Origin: a virus
Length of the DNA stretch: 38,032 nucleotides
Strand: one strand, 5' to 3'
IMG/VR virus record: IMGVR_UViG_3300037635_002107
Coordinates: 1-38,032 of that record
The notes below the pieces were generated by a model, which saw only the letters and a list, made by a program, of their open reading frames with translations, searched no databases and was not told the origin of the DNA. Numbering within the stretch: position 1 is the first letter of the stretch; every line of letters starts with the position of its first letter. The position numbers and the translations under genes were made by a program. This document shows, in pieces, positions 911 to 32,933 of the stretch.

Positions 911-1297
911 ATGGCAGAAATATCAAGTTATCCGCTAAAAGCACCTAAACTAGGTGACTTATTAATCTTCACAGAGACTTACGATGCTAGTGAAGCTAAC
1001 CCAGTTGTTGGTAATCCAACTAAAAACACAACAATAAGTGATGTTTTAGACCTAGTGCCAGAAGTAGCTGACGGTACTATTGGTTATATACCTATGTTTT
1101 CTTCAAGTAACACGATTTCTAACTCTAGTATATTTGAAATAAATTCAGGAGCTATTGGAATCGGTACAACTTTTCCTACTTCTAAACTACAGGTTGTTGG
1201 TATAGTAGAATACGCAGACAATACAGCAGCATTTAATGCAGGTTTAACAGTGGGAGCGATATATAGAACAGGTGATTTACTAAAAATAGTACATTAA
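911..1297 (+). CDS. Short tail fibre-like protein with one GIGT motif
   Basis: This is a 128-residue fibre-related protein. Its N-terminus (SYPLKAPKLGDLLIFTETYD, then a TKNTTISDVLDL segment) matches the N-terminus of the next gene in pattern: SYP, then D..I.T, then TK..T...V...L. This is probably a shared virion-attachment domain. Near residues 81-95 is one beta-type unit, AIGIGTTFPTSKLQVVG, the same motif repeated in the large fibre downstream. The remaining C-terminus is short (AAFNAGLTVGAIYRTGDLLKIVH), a pattern common in small phage fibre proteins. It may be a minor fibre or adaptor. The ATG is 3 bases after the upstream stop and 7 bases separate it from the next gene. Confidence 0.65.
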   Translation: MAEISSYPLKAPKLGDLLIFTETYDASEANPVVGNPTKNTTISDVLDLVPEVADGTIGYIPMFSSSNTISNSSIFEINSGAIGIGTTFPTSKLQVVGIVEYADNTAAFNAGLTVGAIYRTGDLLKIVH

Positions 1298-3404: not shown

Positions 3405-4322
3405 ATGGCGATAAATTTTTTAAATACAATCGCGGTAGACGAGAACGTCCTATTCGTAGATACAACTAACGACCGAGTAGGTATAGGGACAGCTAGTCCT
3501 TCAGAAAAGCTTAGTATATCTGGAGCTAAAAATACCTCTATAATTCACTTAGGAAGTACAACTAATAATTCATCTTGGTCAATTGGCGATCAAATTGGAG
3601 CAATTGAATTTGGTTCAGCGGATAATTCAGGGGCAGGAGCAGGGGTTAAAGCATCTATATCATACGAAGTAGAAGCAGGGGCAACAGGTTCAACTAATTC
3701 AATGGTCTTTAGGTCAGCAGGTACAAGCGCGAGTACTAATAATACAGAAAGAATGCGTATTACCGCATCAGGTAACGTCGGTATTGGTACAACTAGTCCT
3801 GGAACAAAATTATACGTAGACGGAGGAGAGTCCACATTTAATAGAGGAAACTCTGATGGTGCTATTGCTAGGTTTAGGGGCAAGAATGCAGAAAAAGCCG
3901 TAATAGGCACTGTCGATTCTTGGTTTGCAAGTAATGTAGGGATTGGAACTACTAGTCCTGGGGAAAAGCTTGATGTTAATGGTAATATAAAAATTAAAGA
4001 CACTTTACTATCAAACCAAGAGAATACAGATATAGACTCCGCGGCAGCTGAAGTGGTTGCTCAGGTAGCACACGCTACGTATACAGCAGCTTTCTTTGAC
4101 TTTGTAGTTAAGAAAGGTACAAATGTAAGATCAGGTACAGTATATGCTTGTCATAACGGAGATTCTACTCCTTTGGTAGAGTTTACAGAAACATCGACTA
4201 ACGACTTAGGTGACACATCAGATGTTACGTTAAGTGTAGATATATCAGGAGCTAATATGAGGTTGGTGGCAACAGTGACTTCAGATGACTGGAGTGTTAA
4301 ATCATTAATAAGAGCAATATAA
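3405..4322 (+). CDS. Tail fibre protein with three GIGT repeats
   Basis: This 305-residue fibre starts MAINFLNTIAVDENVLFVD. It holds three copies of the beta-type repeat at 3477-3500 (VGIGTASP), 3771-3800 (GNVGIGTTSP) and 3930-3959 (SNVGIGTTSP), each followed by a KL.V.G strand. The middle copy is preceded by ERMRITASG, the longer unit also used in the 1493-residue fibre. The C-terminal 100 residues (AAAEVVAQVAHATYTAAFFDFVV...) form a different beta domain that resembles, from memory, C-terminal domains of marine phage tail proteins. It shares an N-terminal type with the preceding gene, so the two may attach to the same site. It ends 1 base before the LamG cluster. Confidence 0.78.
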   Translation: MAINFLNTIAVDENVLFVDTTNDRVGIGTASPSEKLSISGAKNTSIIHLGSTTNNSSWSIGDQIGAIEFGSADNSGAGAGVKASISYEVEAGATGSTNSMVFRSAGTSASTNNTERMRITASGNVGIGTTSPGTKLYVDGGESTFNRGNSDGAIARFRGKNAEKAVIGTVDSWFASNVGIGTTSPGEKLDVNGNIKIKDTLLSNQENTDIDSAAAEVVAQVAHATYTAAFFDFVVKKGTNVRSGTVYACHNGDSTPLVEFTETSTNDLGDTSDVTLSVDISGANMRLVATVTSDDWSVKSLIRAI

Positions 4323-4323
4323 T

Positions 4324-5007
4324 ATGGGATTTTATAGAGGGCCAAATATAGTAACAGACGGATTGATTTACGCTATCGACGCAGGCAGCGGAAGAAGCTA
4401 TCCAGGATCAGGTACTACTGTTAGCAATATAATAGATAGTTCTACTGGAACTTTAGTTAATGGTGTAGCGTTTAATAGTGCTAACGGCGGTTATTGGGAA
4501 TTTGATGGTACAGATGATTATATAAGTATAGCTAACGCAAATTCACCTCAGTTTACAGCAAACCAAGCTTTTACTATATCTTATGTAGTTTATCTTAATA
4601 GAGTAACGGGAACGTATATGTCCCCAGTAATGAAAGGATCTTTTGGCAGCTCTTATGGTCATTTAATTGGATCTGGTAATTTATTTTTAGTCTACACAGA
4701 CAACGATTCAAGCCCTGAGTTAACCATAAGTAATATGCTTAATAACGATGTTGATAAATGGGTTTTTATTACACAAACTTATGACGGTAGTAAAATTTAC
4801 GTATATAGAAACGGAGTTTTAGCTGGCCAGTCTGGAACAGGTATAAGTTTTACTGTAAATACCTCAAATTTATATTTTGGCTCTAACAACTCTACAGGTT
4901 ATTATTTAGATGGAGATATGTCTAATGTAAAAATGTACAATAAAGCTTTGTCAGCGGCAGAAGTACTACAAAATTTCAACGCACAAAAATCAAGATTTGG
5001 ATTATGA
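4324..5007 (+). CDS. LamG-like (concanavalin fold) fibre protein 1
   Basis: This 227-residue protein is the first of three paralogues. The N-terminal signature is GPNIVTDGLIYAIDAGSGRS followed by YPGSGTT and an N-G-V-x-F turn, then GGYWEFDGTDDYI. The C-terminus is YNKALSAAEVLQNFNAQKSRF. WEFDGTDDYI, the central YRNG strand and the MYNKALSAAEV end are hallmarks of LamG/jelly-roll domains, which commonly bind glycans. It is probably an adhesin on the tail. The middle of the domain differs strongly from its paralogues while the two ends are conserved. Its stop overlaps the next start as ATGA, implying coupled translation. Confidence 0.82.
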   Translation: MGFYRGPNIVTDGLIYAIDAGSGRSYPGSGTTVSNIIDSSTGTLVNGVAFNSANGGYWEFDGTDDYISIANANSPQFTANQAFTISYVVYLNRVTGTYMSPVMKGSFGSSYGHLIGSGNLFLVYTDNDSSPELTISNMLNNDVDKWVFITQTYDGSKIYVYRNGVLAGQSGTGISFTVNTSNLYFGSNNSTGYYLDGDMSNVKMYNKALSAAEVLQNFNAQKSRFGL

Positions 5008-5246
5008 TAACATACATTACAATAAACGCAGACGAATTATCTTTAGTTGATTTCAACGAAGTTATGGAAACATCAGAAGATACAGTTAGACTATCAGTTG
5101 ATGGTTTGCAAACAGTATTAAAATGGGAGGGTGATGAACCTGCGTTTGTATCAACATTAAGTTCATACGAAGGACCTTACACTCACGAAGAAATTTTAGC
5201 AATAATGGCTACTTCAGAATGGACTGACACTAACACACCAGAATAA
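5004..5246 (+). CDS. Small conserved protein between LamG genes
   Basis: This 80-residue acidic protein starts MITYITINADELSLVDFNEV. It includes ETSEDTVRLSVDG, a WEGDEPAFV segment and a C-terminal YTHEEILAIMATSEW. I recall similar short proteins in marine phage fibre modules but know no function. Its position, overlapping the LamG gene upstream by ATGA and lying 1 base before the LamG gene downstream, suggests a fibre accessory or assembly role. That is inference. It has no membrane segment or signal peptide. Confidence 0.65.
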   Translation: MITYITINADELSLVDFNEVMETSEDTVRLSVDGLQTVLKWEGDEPAFVSTLSSYEGPYTHEEILAIMATSEWTDTNTPE

Positions 5247-5247
5247 T

Positions 5248-5931
5248 ATGGGAGCATACGGAGGACCAGATATAATAACAGATGGCTTAGTTTTTGCTGT
5301 TGACGCAGGATCAGTAAGATCTTATCCTGGATCAGGAACTGTAGCTACTGATTTGGTAGGTTCTAGCAATGGGACTTTAACTAATGGCGTAGGGTTTAGC
5401 AGTAGTAATGGAGGTTACTGGGACTTTGATGGCACTGATGATTACATAGGAGTAGACAACCTAGGTCTTTCTAGTCATACTATAGAAGGTTGGATCAAAA
5501 GTGATAACTCATCTCAAGGAGGAGCTAGTTTTGGAACTATAAAGTCAGTGATTGGTAATTATGACGGAGGTAGTTCTAAGTACACGTATATTGGTTTCAT
5601 ACCAACACTTACTTGGAGAATTGATGACGGAAATATTTCTCACGCAGCGGTCGCTGGAGCGGGTACTATATCTGTAGATACCTGGTATCACGTTGCATTG
5701 ACTTACAATGCTTCTAATGGAGTTACTGTAGGGTATTTAAACGGTGTTCAGCAAGGTACTATAAATTTTACCTCAAATGTTACTTTTAATTCAATACCTT
5801 TTTATCTAGGTAAAAGTCAAGCTGGTGTTTATTTCGATGGATCTGTTGCATTATCTAGATGTTACAACAGAGCATTAACAGCAGCTGAAGTATTACAAAA
5901 TTATAAAGCACAAAAAAACAGATTTTTATAA
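5248..5931 (+). CDS. LamG-like (concanavalin fold) fibre protein 2
   Basis: This 227-residue paralogue has GPDIITDGLVFAVDAGSVRS, SYPGSGT, a GGYWDFDGTDDYI strand and a C-terminal YNRALTAAEVLQNYKAQKNRF. The central strand GVTVGYLNGVQQG and YLGKSQAG are typical of LamG sugar-binding domains. DNA near the start is almost identical to that of the third paralogue, pointing to recent duplication or exchange, while the middle is divergent. It is probably a receptor-binding adhesin. Its TAA overlaps the next ATG (TAATG), so translation of the two paralogues is likely coupled. Confidence 0.82.
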   Translation: MGAYGGPDIITDGLVFAVDAGSVRSYPGSGTVATDLVGSSNGTLTNGVGFSSSNGGYWDFDGTDDYIGVDNLGLSSHTIEGWIKSDNSSQGGASFGTIKSVIGNYDGGSSKYTYIGFIPTLTWRIDDGNISHAAVAGAGTISVDTWYHVALTYNASNGVTVGYLNGVQQGTINFTSNVTFNSIPFYLGKSQAGVYFDGSVALSRCYNRALTAAEVLQNYKAQKNRFL

Positions 5932-6608
5932 TGTACACAGGACCAGATATAATAACAGACGGATTAGTATTTGCGGTTGATGCGGGTAGCGAAAGAAGTT
6001 ACTCAGGCAGCGGCACAACAGGTACTGATTTAATAACCTCTGAATCTATAACATTAAATAATGGTGTTGGGTTTAGTACAGATAAAGGAGGTACTTGGAC
6101 TTTTGATGGATCAGATGATTACATACAAACAAGCTTTGGGCAGAATATAGTGTCTACAGGTTTTTCTGTAAATTTTTGGTTTAATGTTACAGGCAATGCT
6201 ACTTGTTTTTTTATGCAATTTTATGTCACTAATGATGCAGATACCGTGTTTAGAATAGAAAGAAATAGCGCAGGTAGTAACTCAATAGAGTTTGGTCACT
6301 CACCAAATGGTTCTGGTGGAATAAGTGAATTAGTAAGTACTAATTTTCCAAATGACGAATGGCAGTCTTGTACAATAGCTTACAATGGTTCAACTAAATA
6401 CATCTACAGAAACGGAGCATTAGATACATCTGTTAGCGCTTCAGATGTATATTTTTACACAGGAGCAATATTAAGAATAGCTGCTCGCCAGAACGGAACA
6501 CTATTACCTATAAATGGAAAAATGCCGTCAGTAAAAGTTTATAATAAAGCTTTAAGTGCTGCAGAAGTATTACAAAACTATAACGCACAAAAATCAAGAT
6601 TCTTATAA
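5931..6608 (+). CDS. LamG-like (concanavalin fold) fibre protein 3
   Basis: This 225-residue paralogue begins MYTGPDIITDGLVFAVDAG and ends YNKALSAAEVLQNYNAQKSR. It keeps WTFDGSDDYI near residue 59 and the YIYRNGALD strand, so the LamG fold call is secure. The centre (FSVNFWFNVTGNATCFFMQF) is unlike paralogues 1 and 2. The start is shifted by two residues relative to them (MYTG against MGxYxG). It is the last gene of the LamG group. A 36-base gap then leads to the large fibre. Confidence 0.82.
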   Translation: MYTGPDIITDGLVFAVDAGSERSYSGSGTTGTDLITSESITLNNGVGFSTDKGGTWTFDGSDDYIQTSFGQNIVSTGFSVNFWFNVTGNATCFFMQFYVTNDADTVFRIERNSAGSNSIEFGHSPNGSGGISELVSTNFPNDEWQSCTIAYNGSTKYIYRNGALDTSVSASDVYFYTGAILRIAARQNGTLLPINGKMPSVKVYNKALSAAEVLQNYNAQKSRFL

Positions 6609-6644
6609 CTAAAAAAATAACCTGGAAAATGAAGGGTAAAAAAT

Positions 6645-9600
6645 ATGGCAAACGAATTTAAAATAAAAAAAGGATTAATTGTAACAGGAGCTACAGGTGG
6701 AACTGCTTTAGATATTCAAGGTTCACAAGGGCAACTGTTTTCAGTAACCGACGACTTAAGCGGAAGTATATTCGCTGTTTCAGATATATCAGGTGTACCA
6801 ATACTTGACGTCAACTCAAGTGGGTTGGTGACTATAGATGGACCATTAACACAAACAGGAGGTGGTGATTCAAATTTCTCTGGAGATGTAAATATAAAAT
6901 CTGTTTTTGATTTTGATACTACCACTGATTTATTTAGCATAACAAACAATCAAAATACAGGAGGTATTAATCTTTCTGGAAACAATAGTAGAATATATTT
7001 TGGAGGCAACAGAGCCATAGAAGGAGCGCAAGGCGGTACTAATTTAACTTTTGCAGAAGGATATACTTCATCATACTTTCAGAGTAATGTTAATGTAACA
7101 GGTGATGTAGCTTTAACAGGTTCAAGTAAATATATTTACTTAAGAACTGGTACAAATTCTGGTCTATGGCAAGAAGATGATTTTTCATTAAGGTTTGGAA
7201 CTAACAACATTGAAGCACTAGAATTAGATAATTTACAAAATGCAACTTTTGCAGCTGATGTTACTGTTTCAGGTAACATAGATGTAGGTGGTGAAATTAT
7301 TCAAACCTCAACAGGAAACGAAAACTCTTTTTCTTCCGAGCTTAATATGGGTAGTAACAAAATTAACAGTCTTGCGAATCCAACAACTGCTCAAGATGCA
7401 GCTACTAAAGCTTATGTAGATGCCCACGGTGGCGGGCTTGGTCCTTTCTTACCACTAACAGCTGGCTCAGGTTATCCTTTGACGGACACTTTGTATGTTC
7501 AGGAAAATGGTAATAAAAATAATGGTACTATATCAATGGGCCTTGGTGGTAGCGGTACAAGTAAGTGGTCTTTTTTAACGGGTACTCATTACAACCAAGC
7601 AACAGGAAGTGGCAACGGTAGTGGATCAGCGGGTATGGCTATAATAGGTGGTTTGGCTACAGAAACATATAATAAAGTTTATATTGGTGGTGGACCATAT
7701 GAAATAAATGCCGCTACTCAGATAGATTTTTGGACGCACTCTGGCATATTGTCTACTCAAGGTGGAACTAGAAGAGGTTATGTAAATAGTGGGGGAGATT
7801 GGTTTTTAGCAGATACACTATGGGTTGACAATGCAGATAGTAAAGTCGGGATTGGGACGACTAGTCCTCAACAAAAATTACACGTAGCAGGAAAATTACT
7901 AGTTGACAATGGAGATTTAGGAAGCGTAGCGGGTGATGCTATTTACCACGCAGAAATAACTGGAGCAAGACATCATTTAGATTTTAAAGAAGTTCGCACT
8001 GCAGATGCTTCTGATTGGAAAAATACTACTTATAAGCTTCAGATGAGGGTTGATAGCACAAACCATCAGTCTATTGACTTCGTTAGCGATGCTTCATATA
8101 ATGAGCATATAGATATATACACGGGTAATCAAGTTTTTAACACTAGGTTTGCTCATGATGGTAACGTCGGTATCGGTACGACTAGTCCTAGTGCACCTTT
8201 ATCATTAGGAAATGGTGGCTCTGAAAGTTTAGAATTAAATCACAATATAAGCTCATCTTCAAGAATTCTTTCTTACAATAGAAGCAATAACTCATACAGG
8301 ACATTGCAATTTGATGGATTAAATCATATCTTTAAAACAAGCAGTAACGAAAGAATGCGTATCACTTCCGGCGGTAACGTCGGTATTGGAACGACTAGTC
8401 CTGATTACAAATTAGACGTTGAAGGAGATATATCCTTAGTTGGCGGAGGTGAAAACTACGCTATTATGTCTCCGATAAATCAAGGAATGCAGATCGCTGT
8501 TGGAGACCCTGCTGATGTTGCAACTCCTTTAGTTACTTTTAGTGGGGATCAAAAAGTAGGTATCGGGACGACTAGTCCAAGCGCTAATTTAGAAATTGAA
8601 TCAGCATCTGATCCTGAAATATCTATTGCGTCAACTGGAGGGGCAACAAGTAACTATTTAAACTTTAAAGCTACAAGTCATACGCAGCCAATACAAAGTC
8701 AAATAAAAACGGTAGATAATAACGATTTTACTGCAGATTTAGTGTTTTCATTTAAAGGAATAGGCACGGGGGGTGCTTTATCAGAAAAAATGCGTATTGA
8801 GGCAGGCGGCAACGTAGGTATTGGGACGACTAGTCCTGGTCAAAAATTAGATGTTGACGGTAGCATAAGAGGTAGTAATATATATGTAAATGATTCCACG
8901 GTACCTTCTATATATATGGAGCGAGGAGATGGGTTACCACAGCCAATTATACAGTTAGTAAGATCCAACGACAACTTAATTATAGGTAACACAGCTATAG
9001 ATGAGGTACTATTCTATGATGATGCCGGTGAAGCTATGAGATTGGATGGTTCTGGTAAACTAGGTATCGGGGTTACTAATCCTAGAGATATTTTAGAGAT
9101 TGAAGGAAATATGAGGTTTGTCAATGGTGAGGATCATTTACTTATAAAACCAAATAATGCCATTCATGGAGCTGACTTTATAGTTGGAGATGGAGTAGAT
9201 CCTGCGGATACGCCAATTATGTCTTTGGACGGGCTGAGTGGTGGTAAGGTAACTATAGAAACTGTAGTTGGTAGTACTGCAAACGCTGACAAAACAACTC
9301 TAGACATACAAGGATCTCAAGGTCAGTTATTCTCAGTTACAGATGATTTATCTGGTGATATTTTTTCAGTGGCAGATATATCTGGTGTACCTATAATGAA
9401 TGTTAATTCTGATGGTACTTCGTATTTTGATGGTAACGTCGGAATCGGGACTACTAGTCCTGCTCATCCGTTGACTGTTGTTCAGAAAATAGCATCAATA
9501 GGGGGTACTAATAATGCAAAGACAATAAGTATTAATGTAAATGATTCTTGGGGTTACCTTACTACTACTGCTGCTAATTTTTATATTAATAAAGGAATTA

Positions 9601-11126
9601 GAGTAGATACTGGTGAAATAGGATCTTACAACGAGGATTTACAACTTAAAACTGGAGGTAATACTAGAGTAGCAATATTAAATTCAAATGGTAACGTAGG
9701 AATAGGGACTACTAGTCCTGGGGCTAAGCTAGAAGTTAACGGAAATATAAAACTAAGTAGCACAGCTGGTCAAACAGCTACCCCAAGTAATATTTGGTTA
9801 GGTAATGATTACAGTAATGGAACAACTAGAGATAAATTAAAGATATACTTATATAATAGTGGAACAGAACAATATGGATTTACAGTAGGTAATCAAAGTG
9901 ATATACAATACCACTCAAATCAAGAACACGATTTCTATGTAGCTAATTCTCTGAAAGTAAGAATAAATCAATCAGGCAACGTGGGTATCGGGACGACTAG
10001 TCCAGGTGAAAAACTAGAAGTAGCAGGTAATATTCTTTTTAATAATAGCGGTGAAGCTTGGATTAAAGGTTACGATAATTATCATTCTATAAAGTTTAGA
10101 GCCGGGGGCACTAATAAAACTGAGTACTATGAATACGGAGGAACTTTAGCGGCAGGCTTAGGTCATAAGTTTTTTACAGGAGGTACTACAAATCAGACAT
10201 TAAAATTTCAAGTAGCTGATGATGGTGCGTATTTTAGCGGCAACGTCGGGATCGGGACGACTAGCCCAAGTGATACACTAGAAGTAGAAGGTGGTGTAAC
10301 TATTACAAGTGAAACACCTACTAAATTACTTTTAAATAATACTAAAAACGGAACTTGGACAGCTGGTGAAGCTTTAGGTTTAGTAGAGTTTTATGGTAAC
10401 GATGCTTCAGGAGGTGGTGCTAAAGTGCAATCTAGTATTGATGTAGTAGCACAGGATCAGTATGGCGCACACTTTAATATGGCGTTTAGTTTAAGTAACG
10501 GCTCAGGAGGAAACTCTGAAAAAATGAGAATTACTGGTGAAGGAAAATTAGGTATAGGAACCACTAGCCCTTTGGCAACACTTCATATAGACAACCCTCA
10601 AACTGCTAATGGTAACATAGGTATGATATCGGATGCATCTGCTGGAGGTACTGGTACTAGAAATATACATGTAAATCTTCCTAACTACGGAGAAGGAATT
10701 AGATTTCTTAGGTCAGGAACTTACAGTGGTGGAGCTATGAAGTTTTATAGTGGTAGCAGTAATGTCGGCTCTGTTCAAATTAATGCTTCATCTACTTCTT
10801 ACAATACTACATCTGACTACAGAGCTAAAGAAAATATAGCTCCAATGGAAAATAGTATAGATAGGTTAAAAGAATTAAAGCCTTGTAGGTTTAATTTTTT
10901 AATAGACCCTGAAAATACTGTAGACGGTTTTATAGCTCACGAAGCTCAAGAAGTAGTTCCTGAGGCAGTTACAGGTGAAAAAGATAAACTAGATTATGAA
11001 GGAAATCCAGATTATCAAGGTATAGATCAATCTAAATTAGTACCTTTACTAACAGCAGCACTGCAAGAGGCAATAAATAAAATAGAACAATTAGAAACAA
11101 GAATACAAACATTAGAAAACAATTAA
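6645..11126 (+). CDS. Large tail fibre with GIGTTSP repeats and S74 domain
   Basis: At 1493 residues this is the largest complete gene of the window and probably the main receptor-binding fibre. The N-terminus (MANEFKIKKGLIVTGATGG) is a common marine-phage fibre start. A unit starting LDIQGSQGQLFSVTDDLSG occurs at about residues 22-66 and again at 886-930. A GNVG/ATKAYVDA fibre unit lies near residues 218-260. Eleven VGIGTTSP-type repeats follow between about residues 400 and 1309. The C-terminus is an intramolecular chaperone of the peptidase S74 type: SDYRAKENI supplies Ser1390 and Lys1395, the same spacing as the catalytic pair in endosialidases. FIAHEAQEVVPEAV and a C-terminal coiled coil follow. 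Such domains trimerise the fibre and then cleave themselves off, here predicted just before Ser1390. Confidence 0.9.
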   Translation: MANEFKIKKGLIVTGATGGTALDIQGSQGQLFSVTDDLSGSIFAVSDISGVPILDVNSSGLVTIDGPLTQTGGGDSNFSGDVNIKSVFDFDTTTDLFSITNNQNTGGINLSGNNSRIYFGGNRAIEGAQGGTNLTFAEGYTSSYFQSNVNVTGDVALTGSSKYIYLRTGTNSGLWQEDDFSLRFGTNNIEALELDNLQNATFAADVTVSGNIDVGGEIIQTSTGNENSFSSELNMGSNKINSLANPTTAQDAATKAYVDAHGGGLGPFLPLTAGSGYPLTDTLYVQENGNKNNGTISMGLGGSGTSKWSFLTGTHYNQATGSGNGSGSAGMAIIGGLATETYNKVYIGGGPYEINAATQIDFWTHSGILSTQGGTRRGYVNSGGDWFLADTLWVDNADSKVGIGTTSPQQKLHVAGKLLVDNGDLGSVAGDAIYHAEITGARHHLDFKEVRTADASDWKNTTYKLQMRVDSTNHQSIDFVSDASYNEHIDIYTGNQVFNTRFAHDGNVGIGTTSPSAPLSLGNGGSESLELNHNISSSSRILSYNRSNNSYRTLQFDGLNHIFKTSSNERMRITSGGNVGIGTTSPDYKLDVEGDISLVGGGENYAIMSPINQGMQIAVGDPADVATPLVTFSGDQKVGIGTTSPSANLEIESASDPEISIASTGGATSNYLNFKATSHTQPIQSQIKTVDNNDFTADLVFSFKGIGTGGALSEKMRIEAGGNVGIGTTSPGQKLDVDGSIRGSNIYVNDSTVPSIYMERGDGLPQPIIQLVRSNDNLIIGNTAIDEVLFYDDAGEAMRLDGSGKLGIGVTNPRDILEIEGNMRFVNGEDHLLIKPNNAIHGADFIVGDGVDPADTPIMSLDGLSGGKVTIETVVGSTANADKTTLDIQGSQGQLFSVTDDLSGDIFSVADISGVPIMNVNSDGTSYFDGNVGIGTTSPAHPLTVVQKIASIGGTNNAKTISINVNDSWGYLTTTAANFYINKGIRVDTGEIGSYNEDLQLKTGGNTRVAILNSNGNVGIGTTSPGAKLEVNGNIKLSSTAGQTATPSNIWLGNDYSNGTTRDKLKIYLYNSGTEQYGFTVGNQSDIQYHSNQEHDFYVANSLKVRINQSGNVGIGTTSPGEKLEVAGNILFNNSGEAWIKGYDNYHSIKFRAGGTNKTEYYEYGGTLAAGLGHKFFTGGTTNQTLKFQVADDGAYFSGNVGIGTTSPSDTLEVEGGVTITSETPTKLLLNNTKNGTWTAGEALGLVEFYGNDASGGGAKVQSSIDVVAQDQYGAHFNMAFSLSNGSGGNSEKMRITGEGKLGIGTTSPLATLHIDNPQTANGNIGMISDASAGGTGTRNIHVNLPNYGEGIRFLRSGTYSGGAMKFYSGSSNVGSVQINASSTSYNTTSDYRAKENIAPMENSIDRLKELKPCRFNFLIDPENTVDGFIAHEAQEVVPEAVTGEKDKLDYEGNPDYQGIDQSKLVPLLTAALQEAINKIEQLETRIQTLENN
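7842..10571 (+). repeat. Eleven GNVGIGTTSP-encoding DNA repeats
   Basis: Copies end in Ser/Asn-Pro at 7842-7868, 8160-8189, 8373-8402, 8553-8579, 8808-8837, 9054-9083, 9432-9461, 9690-9719, 9975-10004, 10239-10268 and 10542-10571. Four more occur in upstream genes (1151-1177, 3477-3500, 3771-3800, 3930-3959). Spacing is irregular, about 200-370 bases. The DNA is conserved beyond the protein: eight of the eleven contain ACTAGTCC, and GTC, GGG and ACG codons recur although they are uncommon elsewhere in this AT-rich genome. Confidence 0.85.
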
Positions 11127-11664: not shown

Positions 11665-13221
11665 ATGTCAGACAAAATTGTCAAGAACTTGAACTTTGGC
11701 GATGACGCTAAAGTAAAAGTATTCGAAGGAATAAATAAACTCACAAAAGCTGTTAGCTCTACATTAGGAGCTAGCGGCCAATGTGTAATACTAGAAGATG
11801 GCAACGGGAGACCTATCATTACAAAAGATGGTGTAACAGTTGCTGATTCAATAACATTACTAGACCCAGTAGAAAATATGGGTGCTACGCTTTTAAAGGA
11901 AGCTGCTAGAAAAACTGTGAAAGAAGCTGGAGACGGAACAACAACAGCTACAGTACTAGCGCACTCAATATTAAGTGAAGCTTATAATGCTTCTAAATCT
12001 GATAACATCAGAGTTATTAAAGATGGTATTGCTACTGGTGTAGATAAAGTAATAAAATACTTGCAAAGAAAAAGTATTGAAGTTAGTGGTGATATGTTAA
12101 AAGATATCGCTACAATTAGTTGTAATAATGAAAGATATTTAGGAGAAATCATAGGTGATGCCTTTGAAGCTGCTGGAGATAACGGAGTTGTTATGATGGA
12201 ACCTACAGACGTAGAAGAAACTAGCTTTGAATTAGTCGATGGTGTTCAATACGAAAAAGGTTTAACAAACTCTCATTTTGTAACAAGTCAAGAAAAAAGA
12301 GTTGCAGAACTTGAAAAACCAGTTGTGTTACTATTAGAATCACCGGTTGAGACTATTAGAAAGATACAATCAGTGTTAGAACATGTAATACAAAACAATA
12401 TACCTTTATTAATTATAGGTGACCTAGATCCACAAGTTGTATCTACGTTAGCTATGAATAAAGTTAAAGGTAATATAAAAGTAAACGTTATAAACGCGCC
12501 TACATACGGTATTAATAAAAAAGATGTATTATCTGATTTAGCAGTACTAACAGGTGCTACAGTTATAAACGAAGATCTTGGTGATGACTTAGATGTTATA
12601 AATCCAGATTTATTGGGTACATGTTACAGAAGTGTAACAGATGATTATGAAACTATACTACAGGTAGATAACGAAACAGAAGAAGTCAAAAATCTTATAG
12701 AAGAGGTTAAAAACCAAATCAAGGAAGCTAAAGCTCCTGGTGATGTAATTAGATTAGAAAAAAGACTTTCAAGGTTATCTGCTAAAGTAGCTATAGTAAA
12801 AGTAGGTGCTAATTCAGAAATTGAATTAAAAGAAAAGTCAGATAGAGTTGAAGACGCTATTTGCGCAACTAAAGCAGCTATTAAAGAAGGTATAGTTTCA
12901 GGTGGTGGAATTGCTTTATTAGACGCATCTACAAAAGTTAAACCCAAGAATATAGGTGAAGAGATACTGCTAGAAGCTATTAAGGCGCCATTTAAGAAGA
13001 TATTAAGTAATTCTGGTGTTGAGTTTAAGGTTTCAGGCAAAGAAGGCGTAGGAGTTGATGTAGTAACAGGGAAGATGGTTAATATGATTAAAAAAGGTAT
13101 TATCGATCCTTTACTAGTTACTAAAAGCGCACTTAAAAACGCGGCATCTGTAGCTACAACTATATTATCAACTGATTGTGTAATTAATAACTTAAGAGTT
13201 GGAGATGAAAGCAATAGGTAG
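11665..13221 (+). CDS. groL: Chaperonin GroEL (60 kDa chaperonin)
   Basis: This 518-residue phage-encoded chaperonin folds proteins in an ATP-driven double ring with GroES. The equatorial signature is present: KDGVTVADSI near residues 54-63, ENMGATLLKEAA, and the ATP-binding GDGTTTATV (Asp90, equivalent to catalytic Asp87 of E. coli). RVEDA with Asp397 (equivalent to Asp398) and GIVSGGG follow, and GIIDPLLVTKSALKNAASVA near the C-terminus. The usual TLGPKG nucleotide loop reads TLGASG (Pro to Ala at 36). The usual Gly-Gly-Met tail is absent; the protein ends VINNLRVGDESNR. It otherwise has full length and all domains, so it should be functional. It lies between the fibre and virion modules and probably assists folding of abundant virion proteins. 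groES overlaps its 3' end. Confidence 0.96.
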   Translation: MSDKIVKNLNFGDDAKVKVFEGINKLTKAVSSTLGASGQCVILEDGNGRPIITKDGVTVADSITLLDPVENMGATLLKEAARKTVKEAGDGTTTATVLAHSILSEAYNASKSDNIRVIKDGIATGVDKVIKYLQRKSIEVSGDMLKDIATISCNNERYLGEIIGDAFEAAGDNGVVMMEPTDVEETSFELVDGVQYEKGLTNSHFVTSQEKRVAELEKPVVLLLESPVETIRKIQSVLEHVIQNNIPLLIIGDLDPQVVSTLAMNKVKGNIKVNVINAPTYGINKKDVLSDLAVLTGATVINEDLGDDLDVINPDLLGTCYRSVTDDYETILQVDNETEEVKNLIEEVKNQIKEAKAPGDVIRLEKRLSRLSAKVAIVKVGANSEIELKEKSDRVEDAICATKAAIKEGIVSGGGIALLDASTKVKPKNIGEEILLEAIKAPFKKILSNSGVEFKVSGKEGVGVDVVTGKMVNMIKKGIIDPLLVTKSALKNAASVATTILSTDCVINNLRVGDESNR

Positions 13222-31274: not shown

Positions 31275-32933
31275 ATGGCAGCAACTATAGAGGTAAAATA
31301 TTTTAATTCTTTTTTACTTAGAAAATCTTTAGCGGGAAATAACAGACCAGGCTGGAACGGTTCTACTGGTATACCGCCTGCTTTAGGTGGCTACCCTAGA
31401 ATTTCTACACAAGGTAGTGGACCAAGTTGGACTATTGAAGAAGCTAGAATTAGAGGTGGTTACAACAACACTAATGTTGACTACGGAGTAAAAGCTTATT
31501 TAGTAGAAGATGAGCCTAATGCTGTTAATAGAGGTAATTCGTTAATATATTCTGGTATATTTAATTCAAGAACAGGTATAAACAATACAAATGTATTTGC
31601 TGTTGGTTCTGAGATAACTAAAAGTGCTGATCCAGCTAATGGTTCAATACAAAAACTATATGCAGAAGATACTAACTTAATAGTATTTCAAGAGTCAAAA
31701 GTATCGAGAGCTTTAATAGATAAAGACGCTATATACTCAGCTGAAGGTGGAGGTAGCATTACTAATGTAAATACAACTATAGGTACTATGCAACCTTACG
31801 CAGGTAACTTTGGTATAAGTAGAGATCCAGGCAGCTTTGCTGTTTATGGTTATAGAAAGTACTTTACAGACAAAGATAGAAACGCTGTTTTAAGGTTATC
31901 TATGGATGGTTTAACTGAAATATCTACATATGGTATGTATGATTACTTTAGAGACGAGTTTGCGCGCATAGACACATTAACTAGCGAAGGTAGTATAGTA
32001 GGTGGTTGGGATATATACAATAAGCAGTATGTAGTATCTACTCACCCAGCAACTGGTAACACTTCTAGTGGTTATAATACATTAACGTTTGATGAAGGTG
32101 TTAAAGGTTGGACTAGTTTCTTTTCTTATAAACCAGATCAAGTATTAAGCTTAAGAAGTGATTTCTATAGTCTTTATGATGGTAAATTATGGAAACATTA
32201 TTCTGAAGATGTTGATAGAGGTAATTTCTACAATACGAACAATAGTACTTCTATACAGTTTGTATTTAATCCTAAGGTTAGCATGTCTAAAGTTTTTAAA
32301 ACTATAAACTACGAAGGTAGTAACGGTTGGCAAGTGACAAGCTTTAATTCTGATGAAACTGGACCAGATCTGTGGAGCGGTAATTGGTCAAGTCAGTTCG
32401 ACACCGCTAATACACAAGGCAAGCCTACAGTTTACAGTTATAATGAAGGAGCTTTTGATTCTAGCAATCCGCCTTTAACTGGAAACGCCGCGTTAACTAC
32501 CTCGGCGGTACGACCTGTGTTTAGAGCTGGATTTAATAGAAAAGAAAACAAATACCACGCTAATTTAGTTAATAACACTGCAGCTAGACAAGAAGAAGTT
32601 CTATTTGGTAACAGTATGACTGGTATTAAAGGTTATTTTTCTACAGTAACAGTATCTACAGACGGTTTTACCGCTACTACGTCTCAAGCTGTAATAAATA
32701 GTGTAACAATACCTTTAAGTAATATAAATGGAGTTTTAGATGTTAACAAAACTGTTTTAGGTCAAGGTATAACAACTGGTACTTATATAGTATCTATATC
32801 AGGTAATAGCATAGAGGTAAATACGCCACAGACTATTGCTAGTAATACAAGTTTAATAATAGGAGGTACTGATCCAGGTGGATTAAAAGAACTATTTGCT
32901 GTATCTTCAAACTATTCAGAATCATCTTATTAA
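31275..32933 (+). CDS. Tail protein, companion of stabilization protein
   Basis: This 552-residue beta-rich protein contains PSWTIEEARIRGGYNNTNVD, YGVKAYLVEDEPNAVNRGNS, LIYSGIFNSRTGINNTNVF, then LYAEDTNLIVFQESKVSRAL and a repeating W/Y-containing pattern (GWDIYNKQYVVSTHP, LTFDEGVKGWTSFFSYKPDQ, FYSLYDGKLWKHYSED). The latter fits a beta-propeller-like tail domain. From memory this sequence is the C-terminal half of stabilization proteins in related phages, so this gene and the preceding one may be a split version of a single protein. A 33-base A/T gap separates them. Residues 470-530 carry another Ig-like insert (TVTVSTDGFTATTSQAVINS). Confidence 0.68.
   Translation: MAATIEVKYFNSFLLRKSLAGNNRPGWNGSTGIPPALGGYPRISTQGSGPSWTIEEARIRGGYNNTNVDYGVKAYLVEDEPNAVNRGNSLIYSGIFNSRTGINNTNVFAVGSEITKSADPANGSIQKLYAEDTNLIVFQESKVSRALIDKDAIYSAEGGGSITNVNTTIGTMQPYAGNFGISRDPGSFAVYGYRKYFTDKDRNAVLRLSMDGLTEISTYGMYDYFRDEFARIDTLTSEGSIVGGWDIYNKQYVVSTHPATGNTSSGYNTLTFDEGVKGWTSFFSYKPDQVLSLRSDFYSLYDGKLWKHYSEDVDRGNFYNTNNSTSIQFVFNPKVSMSKVFKTINYEGSNGWQVTSFNSDETGPDLWSGNWSSQFDTANTQGKPTVYSYNEGAFDSSNPPLTGNAALTTSAVRPVFRAGFNRKENKYHANLVNNTAARQEEVLFGNSMTGIKGYFSTVTVSTDGFTATTSQAVINSVTIPLSNINGVLDVNKTVLGQGITTGTYIVSISGNSIEVNTPQTIASNTSLIIGGTDPGGLKELFAVSSNYSESSY

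Follow-up and report, generated by a model that had tools for sequence, protein, structure and literature searches.

Introduction

The T-even adhesins gp37 and gp38 carry short conserved motifs between variable segments, and these motifs are recombination sites at which host-recognition segments are swapped. In the T5-like phages DT57C and DT571-2, an in-register deletion arose where direct repeats of ltfA and ltfB had recombined, and recombination also switched the host range (PMC4728585). The sections of PMC10684548 on tail fibres describe recent mosaicism across distant phages and shuffling of receptor-binding protein domains, and the passages of PMC10769870 on capping loops present these loops, borne on trimeric beta-helices, as a feature that the mosaic adhesive trimeric (MAT) family has in common with S74 proteins. 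Fibre mosaicism, exchange at conserved motifs, repeat recombination in S74 fibres and domain shuffling are already known.

Here we analyse the fibre genes of a viral DNA of 38,032 nucleotides (hereafter the window, meaning the whole stretch), in which a 30-bp sequence encoding such a loop recurs. Compared to gp37/gp38, the proteins are unrelated and the window fibre has many dispersed copies in one gene, so that, unlike in the T-even case, module number changes and copies homogenise. The lateral tail fibres of DT57C and DT571-2 are S74 fibres as here, but their repeats are long and lie between two genes, with no dispersed 30-bp repeat. MAT/S74 fibres are like the window protein, which has an S74 domain, in the beta-helix fibre and the capping loop. 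The MAT proteins of Bdellovibrio are characterised by a signal peptide and, after it, a conserved domain of about 130 aa; the window fibre is a virion protein of a phage. The passages of PMC10769870 on the loop treat it as a protein feature and report there neither DNA-level conservation nor a role at breakpoints. The shuffling set out in the tail-fibre sections of PMC10684548 is likewise at protein-domain level, and no common junction repeat is described in them. Full-text search for the peptide GIGTTSP returned no paper, and the literature searched, which took in few subscription journals, contained no case of capping-loop repeats dispersed through a fibre gene, concerted at synonymous sites and forming the usual module border.

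Results

Fibre genes and motif copies in the window

The window (GC 34%) derives from a marine tailed phage; its terminase, portal and head proteins belong to families already known from phages. Its terminase is 46% identical to those of Flavobacterium phages of the elemo group and 64% identical to that of an uncultured phage from Manatee Spring. Two fibre genes and a short fibre-like ORF carry the motif (Table 1). Residues 1390–1443 of the main fibre match PF13884 (Peptidase_S74) with E=6e-10, exceeding the gathering score, and the translation contains TTSDYRAKENI, which has, where the S74 domain begins, the SDxxxK catalytic motif as defined in the S74 passages of PMC10769870. From its sequence, the main fibre appears to be a tail fibre of the Peptidase_S74 (autocleaving chaperone) type, with self-cleavage and trimer formation as predicted properties. 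The 3' part of the second fibre gene (3981–4319) is 91% identical to the fibre genes of two relatives, L330 and L156. A segment of the main fibre's N-terminal part, beginning SQGQLFSVTDDLSG..., recurs further along the gene just before a motif copy, and is found in both places in the fibres of many relatives too.

Fifteen in-frame copies of (G)(N)VGIGTTSP were found, one at 1148 and 14 at 3471–10571; three are in the second fibre gene, 11 in the main fibre gene and one in the short ORF. This in-frame count bears out the original prediction that 14 of the 15 lie within 3477–10571, and ACTAGTCC, said to be present in ten copies, has exactly ten + strand occurrences across the entire window, all of them within motif copies. 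A degenerate form of the motif gave eight matches in the real sequence and none in shuffled sequence. All motif matches are on the + strand, without inverted partners in the fibre genes, and the reverse complement of ACTAGTCC is present only at 32110 and 36235, beyond them. Invertible fibre cassettes of the Cin/Min type were considered and rejected, as no inverted repeat copies flank a segment.

The description of these copies as near-identical blocks of 20–30 bp was overstated. Mean pairwise identity over 30 nt is 75%, and it is 85% for codons 3–10 of the 11 best copies; the longest exact run between two copies is most commonly 8 nt, at most 14 nt in most pairs, and at least 17 nt in only three of the 105 pairs. 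Outside the copies, flank identity falls to 32% upstream and 47% downstream.

At the protein level, the motif aligns by phmmer, across its length, to loops of the solved Bdellovibrio MAT fibres 8ond and 8oml, and VGIGTTSPxxKL fits the capping-loop consensus ending PxxxL.

Table 1. Coordinates of fibre-locus features in the window.
Feature	Position	Strand	Description
Short fibre-like ORF	911..1297	+	carries the outlying motif copy; PHROG
Motif copy	1148..1177	+	GAIGIGTTFP, in-frame translation
Second fibre gene	3405..4322	+	305 aa; 3 motif copies; ORF, PHROG
Motif copy	3471..3500	+	DRVGIGTASP, in-frame translation
Motif copy	3771..3800	+	GNVGIGTTSP, in-frame translation
Motif copy	3930..3959	+	SNVGIGTTSP, in-frame translation
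First paralogue	4324..5007		matches Laminin_G_3
Second paralogue	5248..5931
Third paralogue	5931..6608
Main tail-fibre gene	6645..11126	+	1493 aa; 11 motif copies; ORF; C-terminal Peptidase_S74; PHROG tail fibre
N-terminal conserved part, main fibre	6645..6823	+	common to many relatives, 85–91%
N-terminal segment	6708..6823		recurs at 9301..9409
Motif copy	7839..7868	+	SKVGIGTTSP, in-frame translation
Motif copy	8160..8189	+	GNVGIGTTSP, in-frame translation
Module matching L321	8348..8578	+	85%; right end at motif 8550, left end 25 nt before motif 8373
Motif copy	8373..8402	+	GNVGIGTTSP, in-frame translation
Motif copy	8550..8579	+	QKVGIGTTSP, in-frame translation
Module matching L327/L328	8784..9092	+	78–80%; spans motif copies 8808 and 9054
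Motif copy	8808..8837	+	GNVGIGTTSP, in-frame translation
Module common with L153	9054..9445	+	90%; both ends in motif copies, flanks unrelated
Motif copy	9054..9083	+	GKLGIGVTNP, in-frame translation
Recurring N-terminal segment	9301..9409		just before a motif copy
Motif copy	9432..9461	+	GNVGIGTTSP, in-frame translation
Motif copy	9690..9719	+	GNVGIGTTSP, in-frame translation
Module matching L246	9975..10263	+	75%; motif to motif
Motif copy	9975..10004	+	GNVGIGTTSP, in-frame translation
Motif copy	10239..10268	+	GNVGIGTTSP, in-frame translation
Motif copy	10542..10571	+	GKLGIGTTSP, in-frame translation
GroEL-like chaperonin gene	11665..13221		adjoins the fibre operon

The motif is homogenised at synonymous sites

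Several motif codons are rare in the rest of the window. GTC, GGG and ACG, which the original prediction had called rare elsewhere, make up 2.4%, 5.6% and 6.6% of the codons for their amino acid, and ATC and AGT make up 4.8% and 24%. Within the motif, by contrast, GTC is used in 6/12 (P=2e-7), GGG at the second Gly in 9/15 (P=2e-8), ACG in 7/14 (P=1e-5), ATC in 7/15 (P=3e-6), AGT in 11/13 (85%, P=6e-6) and ACT in 14/14 (P=6e-5); GTC, ATC, GGG and ACG thus occupy 47–60% of their motif columns versus a background of 2–7%. Because two motif versions coexist in the window, simple codon identity between pairs of window copies looks no better than chance in several columns, and codon-specific tests were therefore used. 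The preference for ACT, AGT or TCG, ACG, GGG and GTC is common across phages.

IMG/VR was sampled with a protein-degenerate pattern that is blind to synonymous letters. At multi-copy loci, the codons of matching residues agree between copies of one locus in a fraction of 0.72; local codon use predicts 0.37, and phages of similar GC compared with each other give 0.36. In 48 fibre genes that were not picked by DNA sequence, synonymous codon agreement is 0.70 versus 0.39 expected from codon bias (p=4e-14), and the excess is confined to the 30-bp motif. By position, the ten motif codons stand at 0.61 versus 0.39 and the ten codons on either side show no excess, in a profile that includes loci fetched by DNA consensus. 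Among the unbiased fibre genes, the KLxVxG repeat just downstream shows no synonymous excess (-0.02), nor do generic short peptides in fibre genes. The upstream ERMRI repeat has a small excess (+0.07 with p=0.06 for the unbiased genes, +0.13 when all genes are taken together), and the ATFAG peptide is also homogeneous at the DNA level, in few genes.

Motif versions differ among phages, that of L021 being built of common codons, and each is fairly uniform within its gene, which indicates concerted evolution and not one fixed signal. These results show that, gene by gene, motif DNA is more homogeneous than protein sequence and codon bias require.

Shared fibre modules end at the motif

Fibre genes of relatives were collected via a groEL anchor, the fibre itself and the consensus DNA, and 252 non-redundant genes were compared all-against-all. 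A breakpoint was defined as the point at which a shared block changes from related to unrelated, and was placed from columns outside the motif only. With blocks of at least 100 bp and at least 85% identity, 93 of 203 collapsed breakpoints (46%) fall within 3 nt of an in-register motif; with at least 200 bp and at least 90%, 54 of 91 do (59%). The expected share is about 1.8%. Under a stricter motif definition, the shares are 35% and 46%. A shared block that meets a motif stops there with a probability of 0.84, versus 0.06 per 30 bp elsewhere, and the concentration decays sharply, with just 14 more breakpoints at 3–12 nt beyond the 93 within 3 nt. In the widest set, about half of the breakpoints lie away from the motif, and some of these are at other short conserved peptides such as ATFAG, PYLPLxAG and ERMRI; as junction motifs, YLPL and ATFAG occur in few genes.

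Module order among relatives is not fixed, and breaks in shared blocks are over ten times as frequent at the motif as in other places. Module number also changes between strains, as the original prediction supposed: L082 and L235, whose backbones are 99.5% identical, carry seven and ten motif copies. Their 99.5% identity runs over 5.4 kb including the 3' end of the fibre gene, after which the modules differ, and identity at the junction is about 9 nt. Modules of the window's main fibre match different relatives from motif to motif (Table 1). One of these modules is found in L153, a phage whose GroEL protein is 71% identical to that of the window; a further module matches L296, and the edges of the matches other than that to L153 are at or near motifs. 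Modules are exchanged, gained and lost between phages, and the junctions are concentrated in the 30-bp capping-loop sequence.

Cultured phages

Because cyanophages are available in culture, comparisons between them avoid the risk of mis-joins in metagenomes. The cultured cyanophages S-TIM54 and S-TIM5 have one common module with a motif at either end, and a second common block whose start is at a motif. S-TIM5 and S-TIM61 differ by a replaced stretch with three versus one motif copies, the left edge of which lies about 10 nt before a motif and the right edge at no motif. In outline, these phages agree with the exchange picture.

The fibre genes of two cultured Synechococcus phages, S-CRES1 (L387) and S-CRES2 (L386), differ at 14 of 3954 sites. 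Seven of the 14 differences are in motif copies, which account for 9% of the length (p=1e-4), and four of them, clustered together, bring a diverged copy into agreement with another one, for which gene conversion is the simplest reading. The interior motifs of shared blocks give 17 pairs only, a small sample for conversion. Along the S-CRES1 and S-CRES2 fibre gene, the motif copies fall into two regional versions.

A proposed recombination mechanism and its alternatives

We consider it likely that modules are exchanged, and motif copies locally converted, at the capping-loop repeat, with relaxed homologous recombination as the probable process. The fibre would consist of beta-helix-like modules that follow one another and are interchangeable, with the capping-loop peptide VGIGTTSPxxKL at their borders. 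At the similar short motif DNA, single strands could anneal that come from another fibre gene or from a copy in the same gene; crossovers would swap modules or alter their number, and short conversion tracts would keep the motif copies alike. Because a junction would be at a structural cap and in frame, a hybrid fibre would tend to fold, and that the motif is a capping loop would explain why junctions are tolerated there. The likely agent is an annealing recombinase of the ERF/Rad52 type encoded by relatives.

In the most recent exchanges, identity ends inside the motif after a median of 17 nt, as expected if the crossover lies within the repeat; for older exchanges, the stretch of motif that is still identical measures only 4–5 nt. 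An ERF-family single-strand annealing protein is encoded by seven of the ten long relatives and by three exchange-bearing records. The ERF gene is absent from the 38-kb fragment that is the window, and RecT and Sak4-type recombinases were not found in the ten relatives. Rad52-like recombinases (Red-beta, Erf, Sak) carry out relaxed homologous recombination and work efficiently even on substrates that have diverged (PMC3945230); the ERF-family protein of relatives is a candidate enzyme for acting on the window motif. A diversity-generating retroelement was also considered and rejected, the reverse transcriptase PF00078 being absent from the window and the ten relatives, which are possibly fragments. 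The proposal that the motif is a site of homologous exchange holds in that junctions lie at the motif and modules vary; the step from there to similarity of motif DNA as the cause of the junctions is one that we infer.

The main rival is structure-level selection alone, in which joins arise at random or by microhomology and those in the capping loop survive as ends of folding units, DNA likeness being irrelevant. The match of the motif to the capping loop of solved beta-helix fibres, a loop that is a natural protein border, speaks for it, and a three-way parent test of 13 recombinants, which gave no signal of greater motif likeness between presumed parents than between random same-gene copy pairs (p=0.38), is compatible with it. 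Such selection leaves unexplained, however, the synonymous homogeneity limited to motif codons, the scarcity of junctions in the low-constraint variable residues just downstream (93 versus 14) and the conversion-like cluster in the S-CRES phages, and we regard it as unlikely to be the whole explanation. Because homogeneity is motif-confined and weak or absent in neighbouring repeats, and because the junctions are sharp, we argue that DNA exchange at the repeat also occurs, alongside structure-level selection. It is improbable that the motif letters are instead kept by some other DNA or RNA function, such as a hairpin, a rare-codon translation pause or a site-specific recombinase site. Rare codons do gather at fixed positions, several of them favoured across phages, and GGGAC-GACTA-GTCC is able to form a small stem, but phages use different versions, including the common-codon one of L021, each uniform within its gene, and copies share one orientation without inverted partners in the fibre genes. 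The hairpin itself was rejected: the Gly and Ser stem codons are not coupled in the unbiased set, a weak coupling in the larger set being set aside because loci fetched with the DNA consensus affect it, and one of nine copy folds has z < -2.

Tandem duplication of modules followed by divergence, the motif being the part that has not yet diverged, would account for repeats in a row in one gene, and the recurring N-terminal segment is one real internal duplication. Yet beyond the motif, even conserved residues show no more than background identity at synonymous sites, flank identity disfavours this origin, and the modules of the window match different phages and not one another, all of which makes it very improbable. 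Chimeric metagenome assemblies joined at the repeats are a still more remote explanation. Relatives are mostly metagenome contigs, and their ends within 5 kb of groEL are on the fibre side in 25/46 versus 8/46 on the other side, a bias expected for a hypervariable or repetitive region; but most junctions have too little identity for an assembler to be misled (L082/L235 have about 9 nt), blocks with motifs at their borders are also seen in cultured, clonal phages, and shared modules are typically 85–95% identical and therefore come from different molecules.

Exchange and conversion at the repeat, the reading that we prefer, is a likely route by which phages change host-recognition segments of their fibres. 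Mosaic fibre junctions are usually described at the level of protein domains; here they can be scored at a widespread 30-bp repeat that marks module borders, is homogenised at synonymous sites and holds about half of the detected breakpoints. This makes it possible to test in natural populations how often fibre modules change and which of the two, selection or recombination, maintains the likeness of the repeat DNA. As a practical use, the repeat parses unannotated fibres into modules.

Wider occurrence and gene neighbourhood

More tentatively, the capping-loop DNA might give S74/beta-helix fibres from a very wide pool a common handle for exchange, its letters kept alike by recombination. The sampled phage loci span GC 0.30–0.62, and the same 20-mer occurs in genomes of CPR, Bdellovibrio-like bacteria and Bacteroidota. 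If this possibility is true, fibre evolvability is written into synonymous sites.

The exact DNA GGNATYGGGACGACTAGTCC was found in 22 stretches (L360–L381), which are contigs of CPR, Bdellovibrio-like, Bacteroidota and other bacterial or archaeal genomes. Between the two fibre genes of the window are three paralogues with similar ends and diverged middles, the first of which matches a concanavalin-A-like lectin domain. The phage-encoded GroEL-like chaperonin beside the fibre operon is conserved across the group.
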